DNA of 33,628 bases from an uncultured Clostridium sp. (GTDB lineage Bacteria; Bacillota; Clostridia; Lachnospirales; Lachnospiraceae): the NCBI GenBank assembly GCA_945915475.1, contig CAMEFI010000034.1, positions 1 to 33,628 of the forward strand, given 5' to 3'. This document shows positions 14,221 through 19,310 of this stretch, piece after piece. The notes below the pieces were generated by a model. It saw only the letters and a list, made by a program, of their open reading frames with translations, was not told the origin of the DNA and made no database searches. How positions within the stretch are numbered: position 1 is the stretch's first letter; every line of letters starts with the position of its first letter. The position numbers and the translations under genes were made by a program.

Positions 14221-14250
14221 ACGGGAAAGATGATTATTCATCTTTCCCGT
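14221..14250. terminator. Bidirectional hairpin between cobB and the AraC regulator
   Basis: A perfect 13-bp stem (14221-14233 with 14238-14250, starting ACGGGAAAGATGA) with a 4-nt loop. It sits between convergent genes, and the right arm and part of the loop lie inside the last codons of the AraC gene. T-tracts are weak on both sides. Confidence 0.65.
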
Positions 14251-15022
14251 TTGATGTCTGAAAGCCTTCTTCAGTTGCTTTTCCGATTTCTGTGTTTCGA
14301 AAATAATACATTCGGTAATTGCTCGGTGTCATGCCGGTATGTTTTCGAAATATTTCCGTAAAATAACTCTGGTTTGAAAAGGCTAACGTCGAAGCAATCT
14401 GCGAGAGGCTATAGTTGGAGTAGATCAGCATGTTTTTGGCTGTGTCTACCTTCTTGGATTGAATGTAACTGCTGATGGAACTTCCTGTTTCTTTTTTGAA
14501 TAGACGGGATAAATAGGAAGGGGTTAATTGAACATGTTCTGCAAGTGTTTCTATAGTGATTCGTGTATGTAAATGGTCATAGATATAATCCAGACATTCA
14601 GCAATCTGTCTGGAGCAAATCTTCTGCTTGCGGAGAGATTTCATTCGCTTGGTATAGTCTATACACATGGCAGTGTGAAGATCGGAAATCTCCTGAATTG
14701 ATTTACAAAGGTCGGCTTTTTGAATATAGAAATCGCTCAGACTGTATGCTGCTGATAATTCCATTCCGCCTTCTATGCAATAGCGTGCAACCAGAGCAGT
14801 TGTGATAGTAAAATGATATTTCATACTCTGAAGCCTATTTAAAGATAATGTCCCTAGTCCGGGTTTATTCATTAATGGTTCTTCACACAGTTGATGAACT
14901 TTTTGAATGTTGCCGGCTTTGATGGCTGAATAGAATTCTAATTCCGGATTGTAAGGAGCTCTTAATATTTCATTTTCTCTCTGAACAAATTCTTTGTAAT
15001 GAAGTTCCTGCTGTAATGCCAT
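14234..15022 (-). CDS. AraC-family transcriptional regulator
   Basis: 262 residues. The C-terminal ~100 residues contain two helix-turn-helix units: TIETLAEHVQLTPSYLSRLFKKETG (helix-turn-helix 1) and SLSQIASTLAFSNQSYFTEIFRKHTG (2), the AraC/XylS signature ending MTPSNYR. The N-terminal ~150 residues are helical, lack the sugar-binding cupin signature, and resemble the uncharacterised sensory part common in Clostridia. It is transcribed divergently from the GH5 glycosidase across a 138-bp spacer, which makes that gene its most likely target, probably in response to a sugar or oligosaccharide. On the minus strand a TATAAT (plus coordinates 15047-15052) and AGGAGG-like site precede the ATG at 15022. 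Confidence 0.92.
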   Translation of the reverse strand: MALQQELHYKEFVQRENEILRAPYNPELEFYSAIKAGNIQKVHQLCEEPLMNKPGLGTLSLNRLQSMKYHFTITTALVARYCIEGGMELSAAYSLSDFYIQKADLCKSIQEISDLHTAMCIDYTKRMKSLRKQKICSRQIAECLDYIYDHLHTRITIETLAEHVQLTPSYLSRLFKKETGSSISSYIQSKKVDTAKNMLIYSNYSLSQIASTLAFSNQSYFTEIFRKHTGMTPSNYRMYYFRNTEIGKATEEGFQTSNGKDE

Positions 15023-15081
15023 GAGAAATCCTCCTGTTTTCTTAAAATTATATCATAATAACGATAAAAAAGATATAAAAA

Positions 15082-15090
15082 TGGTATAAT
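15082..15090 (+). promoter_or_regulatory. Extended -10 promoter of the GH5 gene
   Basis: TGGTATAAT (15082-15090) is a perfect extended -10 (TGnTATAAT) with no recognisable -35, which suits activation by the divergent AraC regulator. Opposite it, a minus-strand TATAAT (15047-15052) is placed to serve the regulator gene. Confidence 0.55.
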
Positions 15091-15160
15091 TTGTCAATAA
15101 AGAATGATACAAATATGTATACAAGAAATAGTGAGGCTGCAAGGTCGGAAAGGAGAAAAA

Positions 15161-16183
15161 ATGAAACTAGAATGCGGAATCAATCTGGGGGGATATCTTT
15201 CACAATGTAAGCACGAGATGGAGCATTATCAAACGTTTATTGTTGAGAAGGACGTAAAGCAAATTGCAGAGTGGGGTTTTGATCATGTAAGACTTCCGGT
15301 GGATTACGAAGTGTTGGAAGATGAAGCTGGAAATGTATTGGAATCCGGCTATAATCTTGTAAAGCAAGTTATTGATTGGGGAAAGAAATATGAGTTAAAT
15401 GTAGTGCTGGATTTGCATAAGGCATACGGCTATGATTTCAATGACGCGGGAGATACGGAGAAAAACAATCTGTTCTCAGACGAGGCATTACAGAATCGCT
15501 TTCTTAAGTTATGGCAGCAGATCGCAGAGCGGTTTGGATCGTATGATAATATTGCTTTTGAATTGTTGAATGAAGTTGTAGAAAAAGAAAATGCCAAAGC
15601 GTGGAATGAACTGATTCGGAAAGCCGTGAAGGTTATTCGAAAAATTACAACCGAAGCGCCGATTATTTACGGTGGGATTCAGTGGAATAGTGTGAAGACG
15701 TTGAAACTGTTAGAGGTTCCGGCAGATAAGAATACCATTTTTACCTTCCATTTCTATGAGCCGCTTCTGTTTACCCACCAAAAGGCATATTGGGTTGAGA
15801 CAATGGATAAAGATAAGACGATTCTGTATCCGGAAGAGATGGATTACTACCGGACACAGTCGGAAGTGCTCGGCTATCAGGGGGAAGTAGTAATCAAAGC
15901 GCATTCCAAGACTATGGGAAAAGAATTTATTCGTGAAATGATACAGGAGGCGGTTACCGCAGCGGCAAAAGCTGGAGTAGGTCTGTATTGTGGCGAATTT
16001 GGTGTCATTGATCAGGCACCGGAAAATGATACATTACGCTGGTTTGCAGATGTGCGTGAAGTATTTGCAGAGAATCAGATTGGATGTGCATTATGGACAT
16101 ATAAGGGGATGGATTTTGGATTAGTTGATCCGCATTATGATCTGATCAGAGATAAGCTGATTAATCTGTGGATAAAACGATAA
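15161..16183 (+). CDS. Glycoside hydrolase family 5 (endoglucanase-like), cytoplasmic
   Basis: 340 residues from ATG 15161, preceded by AAAGGAG (15149-15155). The GH5 barrel order is visible: GINLGGYLSQC at the start, HVRLPVDY (Arg44), DLHKAYG, FELLNEVVE with the acid/base Glu after Asn, FTFHFYEPLLFTHQ, and YCGEFGV with the nucleophile Glu, then GCALWTYKGMDFG. No signal peptide is present, so it probably acts inside the cell on imported oligosaccharides such as beta-glucan or mannan fragments; the exact substrate is not evident. An AraC regulator is divergent to it and a terminator follows at 16300. Confidence 0.92.
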   Translation: MKLECGINLGGYLSQCKHEMEHYQTFIVEKDVKQIAEWGFDHVRLPVDYEVLEDEAGNVLESGYNLVKQVIDWGKKYELNVVLDLHKAYGYDFNDAGDTEKNNLFSDEALQNRFLKLWQQIAERFGSYDNIAFELLNEVVEKENAKAWNELIRKAVKVIRKITTEAPIIYGGIQWNSVKTLKLLEVPADKNTIFTFHFYEPLLFTHQKAYWVETMDKDKTILYPEEMDYYRTQSEVLGYQGEVVIKAHSKTMGKEFIREMIQEAVTAAAKAGVGLYCGEFGVIDQAPENDTLRWFADVREVFAENQIGCALWTYKGMDFGLVDPHYDLIRDKLINLWIKR

Positions 16184-16370: not shown

Positions 16371-16399
16371 TCAAGATATAAGTTAAACTTATATCTTGA
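16371..16399. promoter_or_regulatory. Palindromic operator upstream of lysR (ATAAG-N5-CTTAT box)
   Basis: A perfect 14-bp inverted repeat with a single central base. Its core, 16378-16392, is ATAAG-TTAAA-CTTAT, which fits the T-N11-A pattern of LysR-type regulators. The same box occurs twice upstream of purA (17885-17899 and 17905-17919), and an 11-mer AAGATATAAGT is shared exactly. It lies about 70 bp upstream of the lysR -10 box. The rest of the 330-bp spacer 16184-16513 holds the GH5 terminator and this promoter region. Confidence 0.65.
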
Positions 16400-16445
16400 A
16401 AATAAAGAAAATATAAGAAAAATGACAAAAAATGCATTTAGGGGG

Positions 16446-16474
16446 TATACAAACCACATGATATAGTATATAAT
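16446..16474 (+). promoter_or_regulatory. Probable promoter of the lysR gene
   Basis: TATACA (16446-16451), a 17-bp spacer and TATAAT (16469-16474). The -10 is perfect and the -35 weak. It is downstream of the palindromic box at 16378-16392. Confidence 0.5.
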
Positions 16475-16513
16475 TTGTTTATGGGAAATCTATTAGATAT
16501 AAGGAGAGATTAT

Positions 16514-17416
16514 ATGAATATCAATCTGGAATACTATAAGATTTTCTATCATGTAGCCACCGAGCTTAGCATAACTGGTGCTGCAAAGAAGCTCTGTATA
16601 TCACAACCTGCCGTCTCCCAAGCTGTAAAACAGCTCGAGCAGGGATTAGGGATTGAGCTTTTTACCAGACGTGCGAAAGGTGTCAGTTTAACCCGAGCCG
16701 GAACTTTGTTGTATTCTTATGTCGGGAATGGTTATGAGACGATTCTTGCAGGTGAGACACAGCTTGCCAAGATGATGAATCTTGAATATGGGGAGGTGCG
16801 AATTGGAGCTAGTGATATGTCGTTACAGTTCTATTTACTTCCCTATTTGGAACAGTTTCATCAGCTATACCCGGAGATTAAGGTTACTGTAACAAATGCC
16901 CCAACGCCACAGACCATTGACCACCTGCATCAGGGACGAATCGATTTCGGGGTCGTGACCAAACCCTTAGAAGTGGATTCCAAGTTTGAGATTATGTGTG
17001 TCCGAACGATACAGGATGTGTTTGTGGCGGGGGATAAGTTCCGTTATCTGAAGGGGAAAAAGCTGGATTACAAGGAATTATCTGCTTTGCCTTTGATATG
17101 CTTGGAAGGTGATACGAGTACAAGGAAATATGTAGATAGCTATTTGGAGAGCATGAAGGTATCTGTCACACCGGAGTTTGAGCTTGCGACCAGTGATATG
17201 ATCGTACAGTTTGCAATGCGGAATCTGGGAATTGGATGTGTTGTGGAGGACTTTGCAAAGAAACAGGTCGAAAGCGGAGAACTTTTTCAATTGGAATTCA
17301 AGAAGAAGATTCCGGATCGTGAGATGTGCCTGATAATTGATCAGCGTTCAACCATGTCTGTTGCGGCATCCAAGCTTTTGGAATTATTGAAAGTGACGAA
17401 TACCGATAACGAATAA
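16514..17416 (+). CDS. LysR-family transcriptional regulator
   Basis: 300 residues from ATG 16514 with AAGGAGAG (16501-16508) upstream; ATG-like starts at 16475 would add an unrelated leader. The N-terminal winged helix-turn-helix reads LSITGAAKKLCISQPAVSQAVKQLEQGLG, followed by LFTRRAKGVSLTRAG. The rest is a periplasmic-binding-protein-like effector domain (about residues 90-295). The ligand is not known. Palindromes of the LysR type lie upstream of this gene and of purA, so autoregulation and control of purA (and perhaps the DUF1292-like gene) are reasonable hypotheses. The DUF1292-like gene starts about 100 nt downstream on the same strand. Confidence 0.94.
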   Translation: MNINLEYYKIFYHVATELSITGAAKKLCISQPAVSQAVKQLEQGLGIELFTRRAKGVSLTRAGTLLYSYVGNGYETILAGETQLAKMMNLEYGEVRIGASDMSLQFYLLPYLEQFHQLYPEIKVTVTNAPTPQTIDHLHQGRIDFGVVTKPLEVDSKFEIMCVRTIQDVFVAGDKFRYLKGKKLDYKELSALPLICLEGDTSTRKYVDSYLESMKVSVTPEFELATSDMIVQFAMRNLGIGCVVEDFAKKQVESGELFQLEFKKKIPDREMCLIIDQRSTMSVAASKLLELLKVTNTDNE

Positions 17417-17517
17417 CCGATAGCAGGGATTTAAGAAAGCTATCAACGTCTTGCAAAGTGGCATGATTAGAGAATCTTAAGAACACAGTGTAAGCGGATA
17501 GCGAACAGGAGGATAAG

Positions 17518-17790
17518 ATGGAGTTAAATAATACTTTCAAGTTAATCAATGAAAAAGGTGAAGAAATTGTATATGTTGGATTAAGCGTAGTGGAAAATCC
17601 GGAGAATGGACAACGTTACCTGATCTATACGGAAGCCGACAATGCAAAGGAACAGACGGGTAAGCAGGTTGATTTATATGCTTGCGTGTATGGTAAGGAA
17701 AACGGAAGAATCGTATTGGATCCGATTACAACAGAGAAAGAGAAGACATTGATTAAGACATTTATCGAGAAGAACATTAAAGTTGCATAA
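17518..17790 (+). CDS. DUF1292-like small protein
   Basis: 90 residues, acidic and soluble, beginning MELNNTFKLINEKGEEIVY. The pattern of short beta strands with EEIVYVGLSVVENPENGQRYLIYTEAD resembles DUF1292 proteins (YrzB-like), which are about this size and lack a known activity. AGGAGG (17507-17512) lies 5 nt before ATG 17518. It sits between lysR and purA on the same strand. A 5-bp hairpin at 17793-17806 followed by CTTTTATT may be a weak terminator. Confidence 0.75.
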   Translation: MELNNTFKLINEKGEEIVYVGLSVVENPENGQRYLIYTEADNAKEQTGKQVDLYACVYGKENGRIVLDPITTEKEKTLIKTFIEKNIKVA

Positions 17791-17884
17791 CAAAAGGAAA
17801 ACCTTTCTTTTATTATATGAGAGCGGCTATACTTTGCATGAAATGGGACGTGCGAGTGTGGTCGTTCTTTTCATGTTGGAAGGT

Positions 17885-17919
17885 ATAAGCTGTACTTATA
17901 AGATATAAGTATAGCTTAT
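17885..17919. promoter_or_regulatory. Tandem palindromic boxes upstream of purA
   Basis: Two copies of ATAAG-N5-CTTAT: 17885-17899 (N5 = CTGTA) and 17905-17919 (N5 = TATAG), centres 20 bp apart, about two helical turns. Together they also form a 16-bp inverted repeat with one mismatch around a 3-nt centre. Each half is a T-N11-A LysR-type site. They lie about 45-80 bp upstream of the likely purA -10 box, the usual place for a LysR activator. Confidence 0.65.
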
Positions 17920-17940
17920 GACAAACATTAGAAATATTGA

Positions 17941-17970
17941 TTTTACTTATGCCTTAAAATAAGTTATACT
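17941..17970 (+). promoter_or_regulatory. Probable purA promoter
   Basis: TATACT (17965-17970) is a fair -10; the best-spaced -35 (TTTTAC, 17941-17946, 18-bp spacer) is poor. A weak -35 behind paired LysR-type boxes suits an activated promoter, but the exact start is uncertain. Confidence 0.4.
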
Positions 17971-18035: not shown

Positions 18036-19310
18036 ATGGTTAAAGCGGTAGTAGGAGCAAACTGGGGAGACGAAGGAAAAGGTAAGATTACGGATATGCT
18101 GAGCAAGGAAGCGGACATTATTGTGCGTTTTCAGGGTGGTGCAAATGCAGGCCATACGATTGTAAATGATTATGGTAAGTTCGCGCTTCATACATTACCA
18201 TCCGGTGTATTTTATAATCATACAACCAGTATTATTGGTAATGGTGTTGCACTCAATATTCCAGTTTTGTTTAAAGAAATTAAGGATATTGTAGATAGAG
18301 GAGTACCGATGCCAAAGATTCTGGTGTCTGATCGTGCGCAGATTGTGATGCCATATCATATCTTATTTGACGAGTATGAGGAGGAGAGATTGGCTGGTAA
18401 GTCTTTTGGTTCCACGAAGTCAGGTATTGCTCCATTCTATTCAGATAAGTATGCGAAGATTGGCTTTCAGGTGAATGAGTTATTTGATGAGGATGCATTA
18501 AAGGAGAAAATAGAGCGTGTTATCGTTCAGAAGAATGTGTTGCTGGAGCATTTATACCATAAGCCGTTGTTGAAGGTGGATGAGCTGCTTGCAACATTAA
18601 AGGAATACAGAGAGATGGTGGAACCTTATGTGTGTGATGTGTCTGCTTTCCTTTATCAGGCAATCAAGGATGGCAAGAATATTCTGTTAGAGGGTCAGCT
18701 TGGTTCTTTGAAAGATCCGGATCACGGAATTTATCCAATGGTCACATCTTCTTCTACTTTGGCTGCTTATGGAGCCATTGGTGCAGGAATTCCGCCATAT
18801 GAGATTCAGAAGATTGTTACTGTTGTGAAGGCATATTCTTCTGCTGTAGGTGCAGGTGCGTTTGTCAGTGAGATTTTTGGTGATGAAGCAGACGAGTTAA
18901 GACGTCGTGGTGGAGATGGCGGTGAATATGGTGCAACAACCGGAAGACCAAGAAGAATGGGGTGGTTCGATTGCGTTGCATCAAAGTATGGTTGCCGGAT
19001 TCAGGGTACAACGGATGTGGCATTTACGGTACTGGATGTATTAGGATACTTAGATGAGATTCCTGTCTGTGTAGGATACGAGATAGATGGAGAAGTAACA
19101 ACAGATTTCCCAACGACCGGTAAGTTAGAGAAGGCAAAGCCGGTGCTTAAGACATTGCCAGGTTGGAAATGTGATATCCGTGGAATTAAAAAGTATGAAG
19201 ATCTTCCGGAAAACTGTAGAAAATATATTGAATTCGTGGAGGAGCAGATTGGCTTCCCAATTACCATGGTATCCAATGGTCCTGGAAGAGATGATATCAT
19301 TTATAGATAA
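18036..19310 (+). CDS. purA: Adenylosuccinate synthetase
   Basis: 424 residues, the normal length. It catalyses the GTP-dependent joining of IMP and aspartate in AMP synthesis. The signature GANWGDEGKGK is at the N-terminus; GGANAGHT, GSTKSGIAP, EGQLGSLKDPDHG and the C-terminal TGRPRRMGW follow. The start at ATG 18036 leaves 8 nt to GAAAGGG (18021-18027); ATG 18030 would leave only 2. It is monocistronic: LysR-type boxes precede it and a terminator follows at 19363. No purB is adjacent. Confidence 0.97.
   Translation: MVKAVVGANWGDEGKGKITDMLSKEADIIVRFQGGANAGHTIVNDYGKFALHTLPSGVFYNHTTSIIGNGVALNIPVLFKEIKDIVDRGVPMPKILVSDRAQIVMPYHILFDEYEEERLAGKSFGSTKSGIAPFYSDKYAKIGFQVNELFDEDALKEKIERVIVQKNVLLEHLYHKPLLKVDELLATLKEYREMVEPYVCDVSAFLYQAIKDGKNILLEGQLGSLKDPDHGIYPMVTSSSTLAAYGAIGAGIPPYEIQKIVTVVKAYSSAVGAGAFVSEIFGDEADELRRRGGDGGEYGATTGRPRRMGWFDCVASKYGCRIQGTTDVAFTVLDVLGYLDEIPVCVGYEIDGEVTTDFPTTGKLEKAKPVLKTLPGWKCDIRGIKKYEDLPENCRKYIEFVEEQIGFPITMVSNGPGRDDIIYR

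Follow-up and report, generated by a model that had tools for sequence, protein, structure and literature searches.

The lysR-purA Locus

The window, by which we mean the whole 33,628-nucleotide stretch of DNA that was analysed, contains a lysR gene followed on the same strand by a small open reading frame and by purA. The coordinates of these genes and of the elements around them are given in Table 1. A Pfam scan of the lysR product returned PF00126 (HTH_1) at 7-63 and PF03466 (LysR_substrate) at 93-293; both the N-terminal winged helix-turn-helix and the C-terminal substrate-binding domain of the LysR family are thus present. Among the 25 of 56 NCBIfam matches listed, no equivalog model scored above its own cut-off for this protein. 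The AlphaFold model of the protein has a mean pLDDT of 89.3, and its top structural matches are full-length LysR folds. The gene names lysR and purA, as assigned in an earlier note on this DNA, are borne out by the Pfam domains of the former and by matches above the NCBIfam cut-off for the latter.

The small protein encoded between lysR and purA is DUF1292-like and has no Pfam match. Its gene lies between lysR and purA in 18 of the 19 loci of the genus that show both genes, the one without it being L024. Further upstream, a sirtuin match precedes lysR in the fetched stretch of 17 of 21 genus loci. In the source genome an AraC-type regulator and a GH5 glycosidase (14234-16183) separate the sirtuin gene from lysR, and in L007 and L020 the fetched stretch has GH5 rather than a sirtuin match upstream of lysR. 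In L020 (G018:C46), purA is gone from between the DUF1292-like gene and the next gene, and was either moved or lost.

Table 1. Genes and putative regulatory elements of the lysR-purA region (positions are those of the window).
Feature	Position	Strand	Description
lysR-upstream box	16378..16392	+	Exact match; inside a perfect inverted repeat with arms of 12-13 bp (16371-16399)
Likely lysR -10 TATAAT	16469..16474	+	Read from the sequence and compared by eye with genus upstreams
lysR	16514..17416	+	LysR-type regulator, 300 aa; putative purA regulator
DUF1292-like small protein gene	17518..17790	+	Between lysR and purA; weak NCBIfam match below cut-off
Distal box	17885..17899	+	At about -85; exact match; near inverted copy of the proximal box
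Proximal box	17905..17919	+	At about -65; exact match; putative recognition site; consensus in relatives ATAA-N7-TTAT
Putative activation subsite	17927..17941	+	At about -43; T-N11-A, ATTAGAAATATTGAT; from column conservation in 62 aligned promoters
Putative second activation subsite	17936..17950	+	At about -34, over the -35; T-N11-A, ATTGATTTTACTTAT; from column conservation
purA -35 TTTACT	17942..17947	+	Read from the sequence; conserved columns 38-43; 17 bp from the -10
purA -10 TATACT	17965..17970	+	Conserved columns 61-66
purA	18036..19310	+	Adenylosuccinate synthase; NCBIfam PRK01117.1 and TIGR00184 above cut-off; putative target

Three Exact Boxes Cluster at the Locus

The earlier note had claimed three exact copies of the palindrome ATAAG-N5-CTTAT, one upstream of lysR and two upstream of purA, and all three were found in these places. 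Dinucleotide shuffles gave an expectation of 0.03 exact boxes for the window, and none of 100 shuffles held three. When the upstream regions were shuffled locally, one box was reached upstream of lysR in 2 of 5000 shuffles and two boxes were reached upstream of purA in 0 of 5000.

The whole genome (3.09 Mb in 81 contigs) contains six palindromic ATAAG-N5-CTTAT sites. Because the backwards control pattern gave seven matches per strand genome-wide, the total number of boxes is not enriched, and it is the clustering alone that departs from expectation: three of the six sites lie within 1.5 kb, and the expected number of such triples is about 1.5e-5. The remaining three sites (L031, L032, and L033) each fall within a mechanically called open reading frame; the corresponding proteins are a SigF-type sigma factor, a protein without an NCBIfam match, and a TIGR02452 family protein, respectively. 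With two mismatches allowed, 25 boxes were found versus 24.5 expected; since this is chance level, only exact sites and the full element described below were used.

The purA Promoter Contains a Conserved Operator with Fixed Spacing

Upstream regions of purA were compared for 63 genomes with a lysR ortholog; the 63 sequences are distinct, one per genome as far as the record names show. An element in fixed register, together with a -10 box, was found in 62 of the 63, a fraction that is conditional on the ortholog because the upstream regions were sampled for its presence. In the remaining one (L110, from Hungatella effluvii), inspection by eye located the element farther upstream, behind a long leader. 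The earlier note had held that boxes missing from relatives with lysR and purA would count against a regulatory link; in these relatives the element is present at purA.

The 62 rows were aligned through the best match of each to a pattern. The element begins with the box, followed by 7 bp, by ATAA-N4-AATATTGATTTTACTTAT spanning the -35, and by the -10. Its consensus reads ATAA-N7-TTAT (columns 1-15), 7 bp, AT(A/T)A-N2-(A/T)AATATT(G/A)ATTTTACTTAT (columns 23-46), and a TATAAT-like -10, and in the window it corresponds to 17905-17950 plus the -10. The arms of the first palindrome are better conserved than their N7 centre. The start site of purA was placed 7 bp downstream of the -10, which centres this palindrome at -65. 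With the start site placed in this way, the window and 62 of the 63 relatives have, in register, the T-N11-A palindrome near -65 that is looked for in promoters of the LysR family. Activation subsites are looked for between that site and the -10, and at the sequence level two overlapping T-N11-A palindromes occupy this interval (columns 23-46). Measured centre to centre, the -65 box is 22 bp away from the -43 subsite and 31 bp away from the -34 subsite. The block that the two subsites form jointly (17927-17950) has a single occurrence in its own genome at up to three mismatches, and this occurrence is at purA.

The positions of about -65 and -85 that had been given for the two purA boxes agree with the -10 read from the sequence and the start site placed from it, and the proposed promoter with a -65 box and a weak -35 is supported. 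The proposal that the -65/-85 pair represents the geometry of a LysR activator was not supported by the comparison. The -85 box was seen by eye in just 2 of the 63 purA upstream regions, and the pair is therefore not a conserved LysR geometry; the conserved second part of the operator lies downstream of the -65 box, over the -35. The -85 box is probably a species-level addition.

The Operator Follows the lysR Ortholog

Within the genus, 21 of the 25 other genomes had a LysR match at E 1e-60, and lysR and purA were found side by side in 19 loci, including the source locus. Loci L034-L052, which are the contigs of L002-L020 again with public names, entered the counts a single time. The public genome collection has 465 stretches coding for relatives of this LysR, and the best 80 of the 465 were analysed. 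Flanks of up to 3 kb were fetched, shorter where a contig ended, and they contain purA in 59 of these 80 loci; in 21 it is absent from the fetched stretch, through a contig end or distance. Among the 59, lysR precedes purA in 45, purA precedes lysR in 12, and the two genes are divergent in 2. Three arrangements of one and the same pair are better explained by a functional link than by an inherited gene order. A LysR of the purA type also adjoins purB in two loci (L183 and L186), and in L189 purF is one gene away from it.

To determine the specificity of the element, 200 Lachnospiraceae genomes from 199 genera were searched both with its pattern and with a LysR profile. Fifty genomes with a match of at least 388 bits were considered to have the ortholog; the next match scored 322 bits. 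Counting pattern matches alone, before any gene, a match without mismatch to the 22 fixed positions was present in 32 of the 50 ortholog genomes versus 1 of the 150 others (Fisher p ~4e-23). All 32 of these elements precede purA; another 12 in ortholog genomes, with one mismatch each, likewise stand at purA. Counted for purA only, after a check of the target gene, the element is present within one mismatch in 44 of 50 genomes with the ortholog versus 0 of 150 without it. Six of the 150 have an element with zero or one mismatch (G034, G072, G130, G136, G145, and G208), in each case before purL. As for other genomes with the ortholog, the purA element has two mismatches in G065 and G128 and three in G153, is degenerate in G110 (four mismatches), and is represented in G220 by the box alone, in a divergent region; in G122 there was no purA near lysR and no element was located.

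As a control, 29 of the 150 genomes lacking the ortholog were searched for purA, which turned up in 28 of them. None of these 28 upstream regions (400 bp each) contains the element: 27 were at 7-13 mismatches of 22 and one was at 6, scores that resemble those of shuffled sequence (means 8.0 to 11.6). In G235, whose LysR at 322 bits is just under the ortholog limit, purA (54% identity) adjoins this LysR, yet the element is absent. The link between LysR and purA claimed in the earlier note is supported: relatives with both genes keep the element, and genomes without the ortholog lack it at purA. A second purA copy (44% identity) was observed in L232 (G033:C31), divergent from a different LysR and with a partial element in which 4 of the 22 positions are wrong.

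The Box Upstream of lysR

Scanning the 260 bp before lysR in 21 genus members gave a box with at most one mismatch in 16 and an exact one in 11. Outside the genus, 6 of 61 lysR upstream regions had such a box versus 1.2 expected from base shuffles, and one of the six belongs to a divergent pair and is its purA box. The distance from the start of the box to the lysR start codon is 129 to 204 bp in 15 of the 16 genus members that have it, which is not a standard position for an activator, and 59 bp in L008.

The box upstream of lysR may simply belong to the intrinsic terminator of the preceding gene and have no regulatory meaning, and we give this reading serious weight, somewhat below even chances. 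In 7 of the 16 members that carry it, the box sits inside an unbroken outer stem of 6-15 bp, and in six of these seven a T run was seen by eye at the 3' end of the stem. By eye, an outer stem is also present in L005, L006, and L014, interrupted by one or two mismatches. The sequence of the outer stem varies among species while its pairing is retained, and in the five of 21 members without a box the upstream sirtuin gene ends only 17-104 bp before lysR. A terminator alone, however, needs no particular core, and here the core is kept in the genus while the stem around it varies. Both roles may hold, and the simplest reading of the sequences would be an upstream-gene terminator that carries a LysR core at its tip. 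Autoregulation of lysR, which the earlier note had claimed, is in agreement with the conservation of the box in the genus and is possible there; it is not general to the system because the box is rare outside the genus, and the frequent terminator-like hairpin and the odd position also count against it. Autoregulation across the family, given the count outside the genus, was judged weak.

Other features of the lysR upstream region were observed in passing. The ribosome-binding region of lysR (16499-16513, ATAAGGAGAGATTAT) is within one mismatch of the box and is similar in many genus members; this likeness may be a chance property of an AT-rich Shine-Dalgarno site. By eye, a lysR promoter block at 16440-16474, GGGGTRTACAAA, is common to many genus members, and a subgroup that includes L011, L014, L015, L018, L019, and L025 has a common CACAAAATATTCGACAAA stretch with an inverted partner upstream. 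The block and the stretch are possible sites of another regulator.

Related Operators before purL and Other Genes

The pattern searches brought up variants of the element as well, whose half-sites include ATTAG and CTAAT. Twenty of these were checked, one per genome, and they lie directly before purL, which encodes FGAM synthase; in 13 of the 20 loci the fetched stretch contains a LysR of another clade. This sister clade likely represents a second purine LysR regulator, as judged from the sequences. Loci with the purL operator variant are L117, L118, L126, L127, L129, L135, L139, L141, L142, L144, L176-L182, L192, L195, L198-L200, L202, L308, and L309.

A tree of 36 LysR sequences separates the purA-type (20 rows) from the purL-linked ones (10 rows) with support of 100/100, with one label change for each group and six rows in no group. 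Among the purA-type rows, purA was seen in the fetched stretch for 17 of 20 (L052, L064, and L092 were without it); two of the ten purL-linked rows are the same gene. At column 44 of the element, all 62 purA elements have T and 14 of the 20 purL elements have A, although the purL rows came from patterns in which column 44 is fixed, with mismatches allowed, so that this ratio and the conserved columns of these rows are partly chosen. The source genome encodes PurL above cut-off; the purL-type pattern matched only the purA element there, and thus gave no sign of a purL arm in this genome.

A search of the order covered 294 genomes, 68 of which had a match, and 27 loci were read; the matches in family f22 lie outside that set. 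Beyond the Lachnospiraceae, the layout was found before purA in 10 genomes of family f17 and before purL in two others. The fetched flanks of 1.5 kb contain no lysR in these 10 f17 genomes, and a search at E 1e-40 gave no related LysR in one of them, G419. Related LysRs (~280 bits) also occur in f17 genomes without the element.

Likewise outside the Lachnospiraceae, L246, L249, L253, and L254 show this operator layout between a gene for an F420-0:gamma-glutamyl ligase-like protein and a divergently transcribed LysR gene, and the box sits at the start of the LysR gene; the identity of the ligase-like protein comes from a Pfam match for L249 and from the first residues for L246, L253, and L254. 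The form of the element is thus not specific to purA, as close variants precede purL, the F420-ligase-like gene, and others, beside other LysR genes. Within the order the layout is a general form of LysR operator; the particular feature here is the gene that it serves.

Other Purine Controls

In other Firmicutes, purine genes are controlled by PurR of the Bacillus type, which is not a LysR protein, and by purine riboswitches. The source genome gave no match to the purine riboswitch (RF00167), with 150 of 432 first-look candidates scored. An Rfam scan of the window, including the region upstream of purA, returned no leader RNA above the gathering score. For Bacillus-type PurR, the best match to TIGR01743 was 37.8 bits versus a cut-off of 258.7, and there were two partial matches only. 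PurR was judged by the cut-off alone because this model gives matches in 12 of 14 control genomes, with scores above the cut-off in 2. PurR and purine riboswitches resemble the putative regulator described here in controlling purine genes and differ from it in that neither was detected above cut-off in the source genome, a result that counts in favour of the link between LysR and purA.

A Model for the Control of purA

Sequence comparison strongly supports a LysR regulator that would act on purA in many Lachnospiraceae. The operator has fixed spacing, is linked to lysR, and is absent from the purA genes that were examined in genomes without the ortholog. The LysR protein encoded at 16514-17416 has, we consider, a high probability of being a purA-dedicated regulator, which would bind as a tetramer to the -65 palindrome and to the -43 and -34 palindromes and would switch by a sliding dimer. 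One dimer of the tetramer would be on the -65 palindrome, and the other on one of the two overlapping weaker palindromes, -43 or -34. Following the sliding-dimer model, the protein without its signal would occupy -65 and -34 and thereby cover the -35; on receiving the signal it would shift to -65 plus -43, which would free the -35 and aid RNA polymerase. We infer binding, the tetramer, and the direction of regulation by analogy, and the choice of -65 plus -43 as the active state is taken from LysR biology. The signal is probably a purine-pathway metabolite. Several observations weigh against this reading: the purA elements of f17 with no LysR in the fetched flanks, the lack of an element in G235, the degenerate, box-only, or missing elements of G110, G220, and G122, the 21 loci in which purA was not seen, and the use of the same element form before genes other than purA.

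Two other readings of the element were considered. The conserved block could be a strong constitutive purA promoter with an extended -35 and an AT-rich upstream, the palindromes being incidental. The block does overlap the -35 and the -10, and purA is a housekeeping gene. A promoter of this kind would nevertheless leave several observations aside: the 28 checked purA genes of genomes without the LysR ortholog lack the element, purA elements within one mismatch are confined to the ortholog genomes in the 200-genome comparison, and the arms of the palindrome are conserved beyond their centre. We regard a constitutive promoter as very improbable. It is also unlikely, in our estimate, that the element is an operator for another LysR protein, or for several, with the neighbouring gene not encoding the main regulator. 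The genome does encode a second LysR above 1e-50 (G000:C1:161587-162462), the sister LysRs have near-identical operators at purL, and the purA element of f17 occurs without a LysR in the fetched flanks. However, presence and absence of the element at purA track the lysR ortholog, the pair is kept in three arrangements, and the purL-type operators accompany a separate clade and differ at column 44, with a ratio that is partly chosen.

Going beyond a dedicated purA regulator, we tentatively suggest a wider scheme that may turn out to be wrong. A paralogous set of LysR proteins might control purine synthesis in Lachnospiraceae and their relatives, one member for purA and one for purL, each with its own version of the three-site promoter, and the set might replace PurR and riboswitches. 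The purA member might sense the adenylate branch, through a pathway intermediate or a co-substrate such as aspartate, and so set the split between AMP and GMP apart from the total flux at purL.

A literature search by title and abstract opening, with subscription papers and regulon databases outside its scope, found no report of a LysR protein acting on purA and no description of purine control in Lachnospiraceae. Within that scope, the operator has the textbook LysR form and what is new is purA as the target. The Lachnospiraceae are a major family of gut bacteria, and a purA regulator with its likely purL sister is a candidate purine control system for this large family. If both exist, a dedicated purA LysR and its sister at purL would be a way to regulate the pathway without PurR or riboswitches, and the ligands of the two regulators could be searched for directly. 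The promoters are also a large natural collection in which LysR activation sites are conserved at fixed spacing, and such a collection is useful for testing the sliding-dimer model.

Comparison with Known Systems

The three-site LysR regulators that have been studied mostly act on catabolic or stress genes. In contrast to BenM, OccR, OxyR, and DntR, the protein described here would have a purine biosynthesis gene as its target, and its subsites are named by position only. The likeness to these four regulators lies in a strong palindrome near -65 with two weaker sites on the promoter side, as given in PMC4730206, and in a regulator gene that stands beside its target, in divergent orientation in 2 of the 59 loci here. 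According to that paper, LysR proteins have a strong site near -65 and two weaker downstream sites, one dimer moves on activation, and no conserved ABS'' motif has been deduced so far (PMC4730206).

The best full-length structural match to the lysR product is CcmR of Synechocystis (5y2v), with 23% identity, a TM-score of 0.66, and the LysR fold over the whole chain; this protein is also the best PDB sequence match. CcmR is named as a Rubisco operon regulator, and its structure was solved with 2-oxoglutarate. As the match has only 23% identity, it was not used as evidence on the ligand of the protein studied here. Compared with the NCBIfam equivalog for PunR, the lysR product scores 81.6 of 345 bits, far below the cut-off. 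PunR of E. coli, as described in PMC8376909, is like the putative purA regulator a LysR protein that acts on a purine-related gene, and differs from it in that its target is a transporter.
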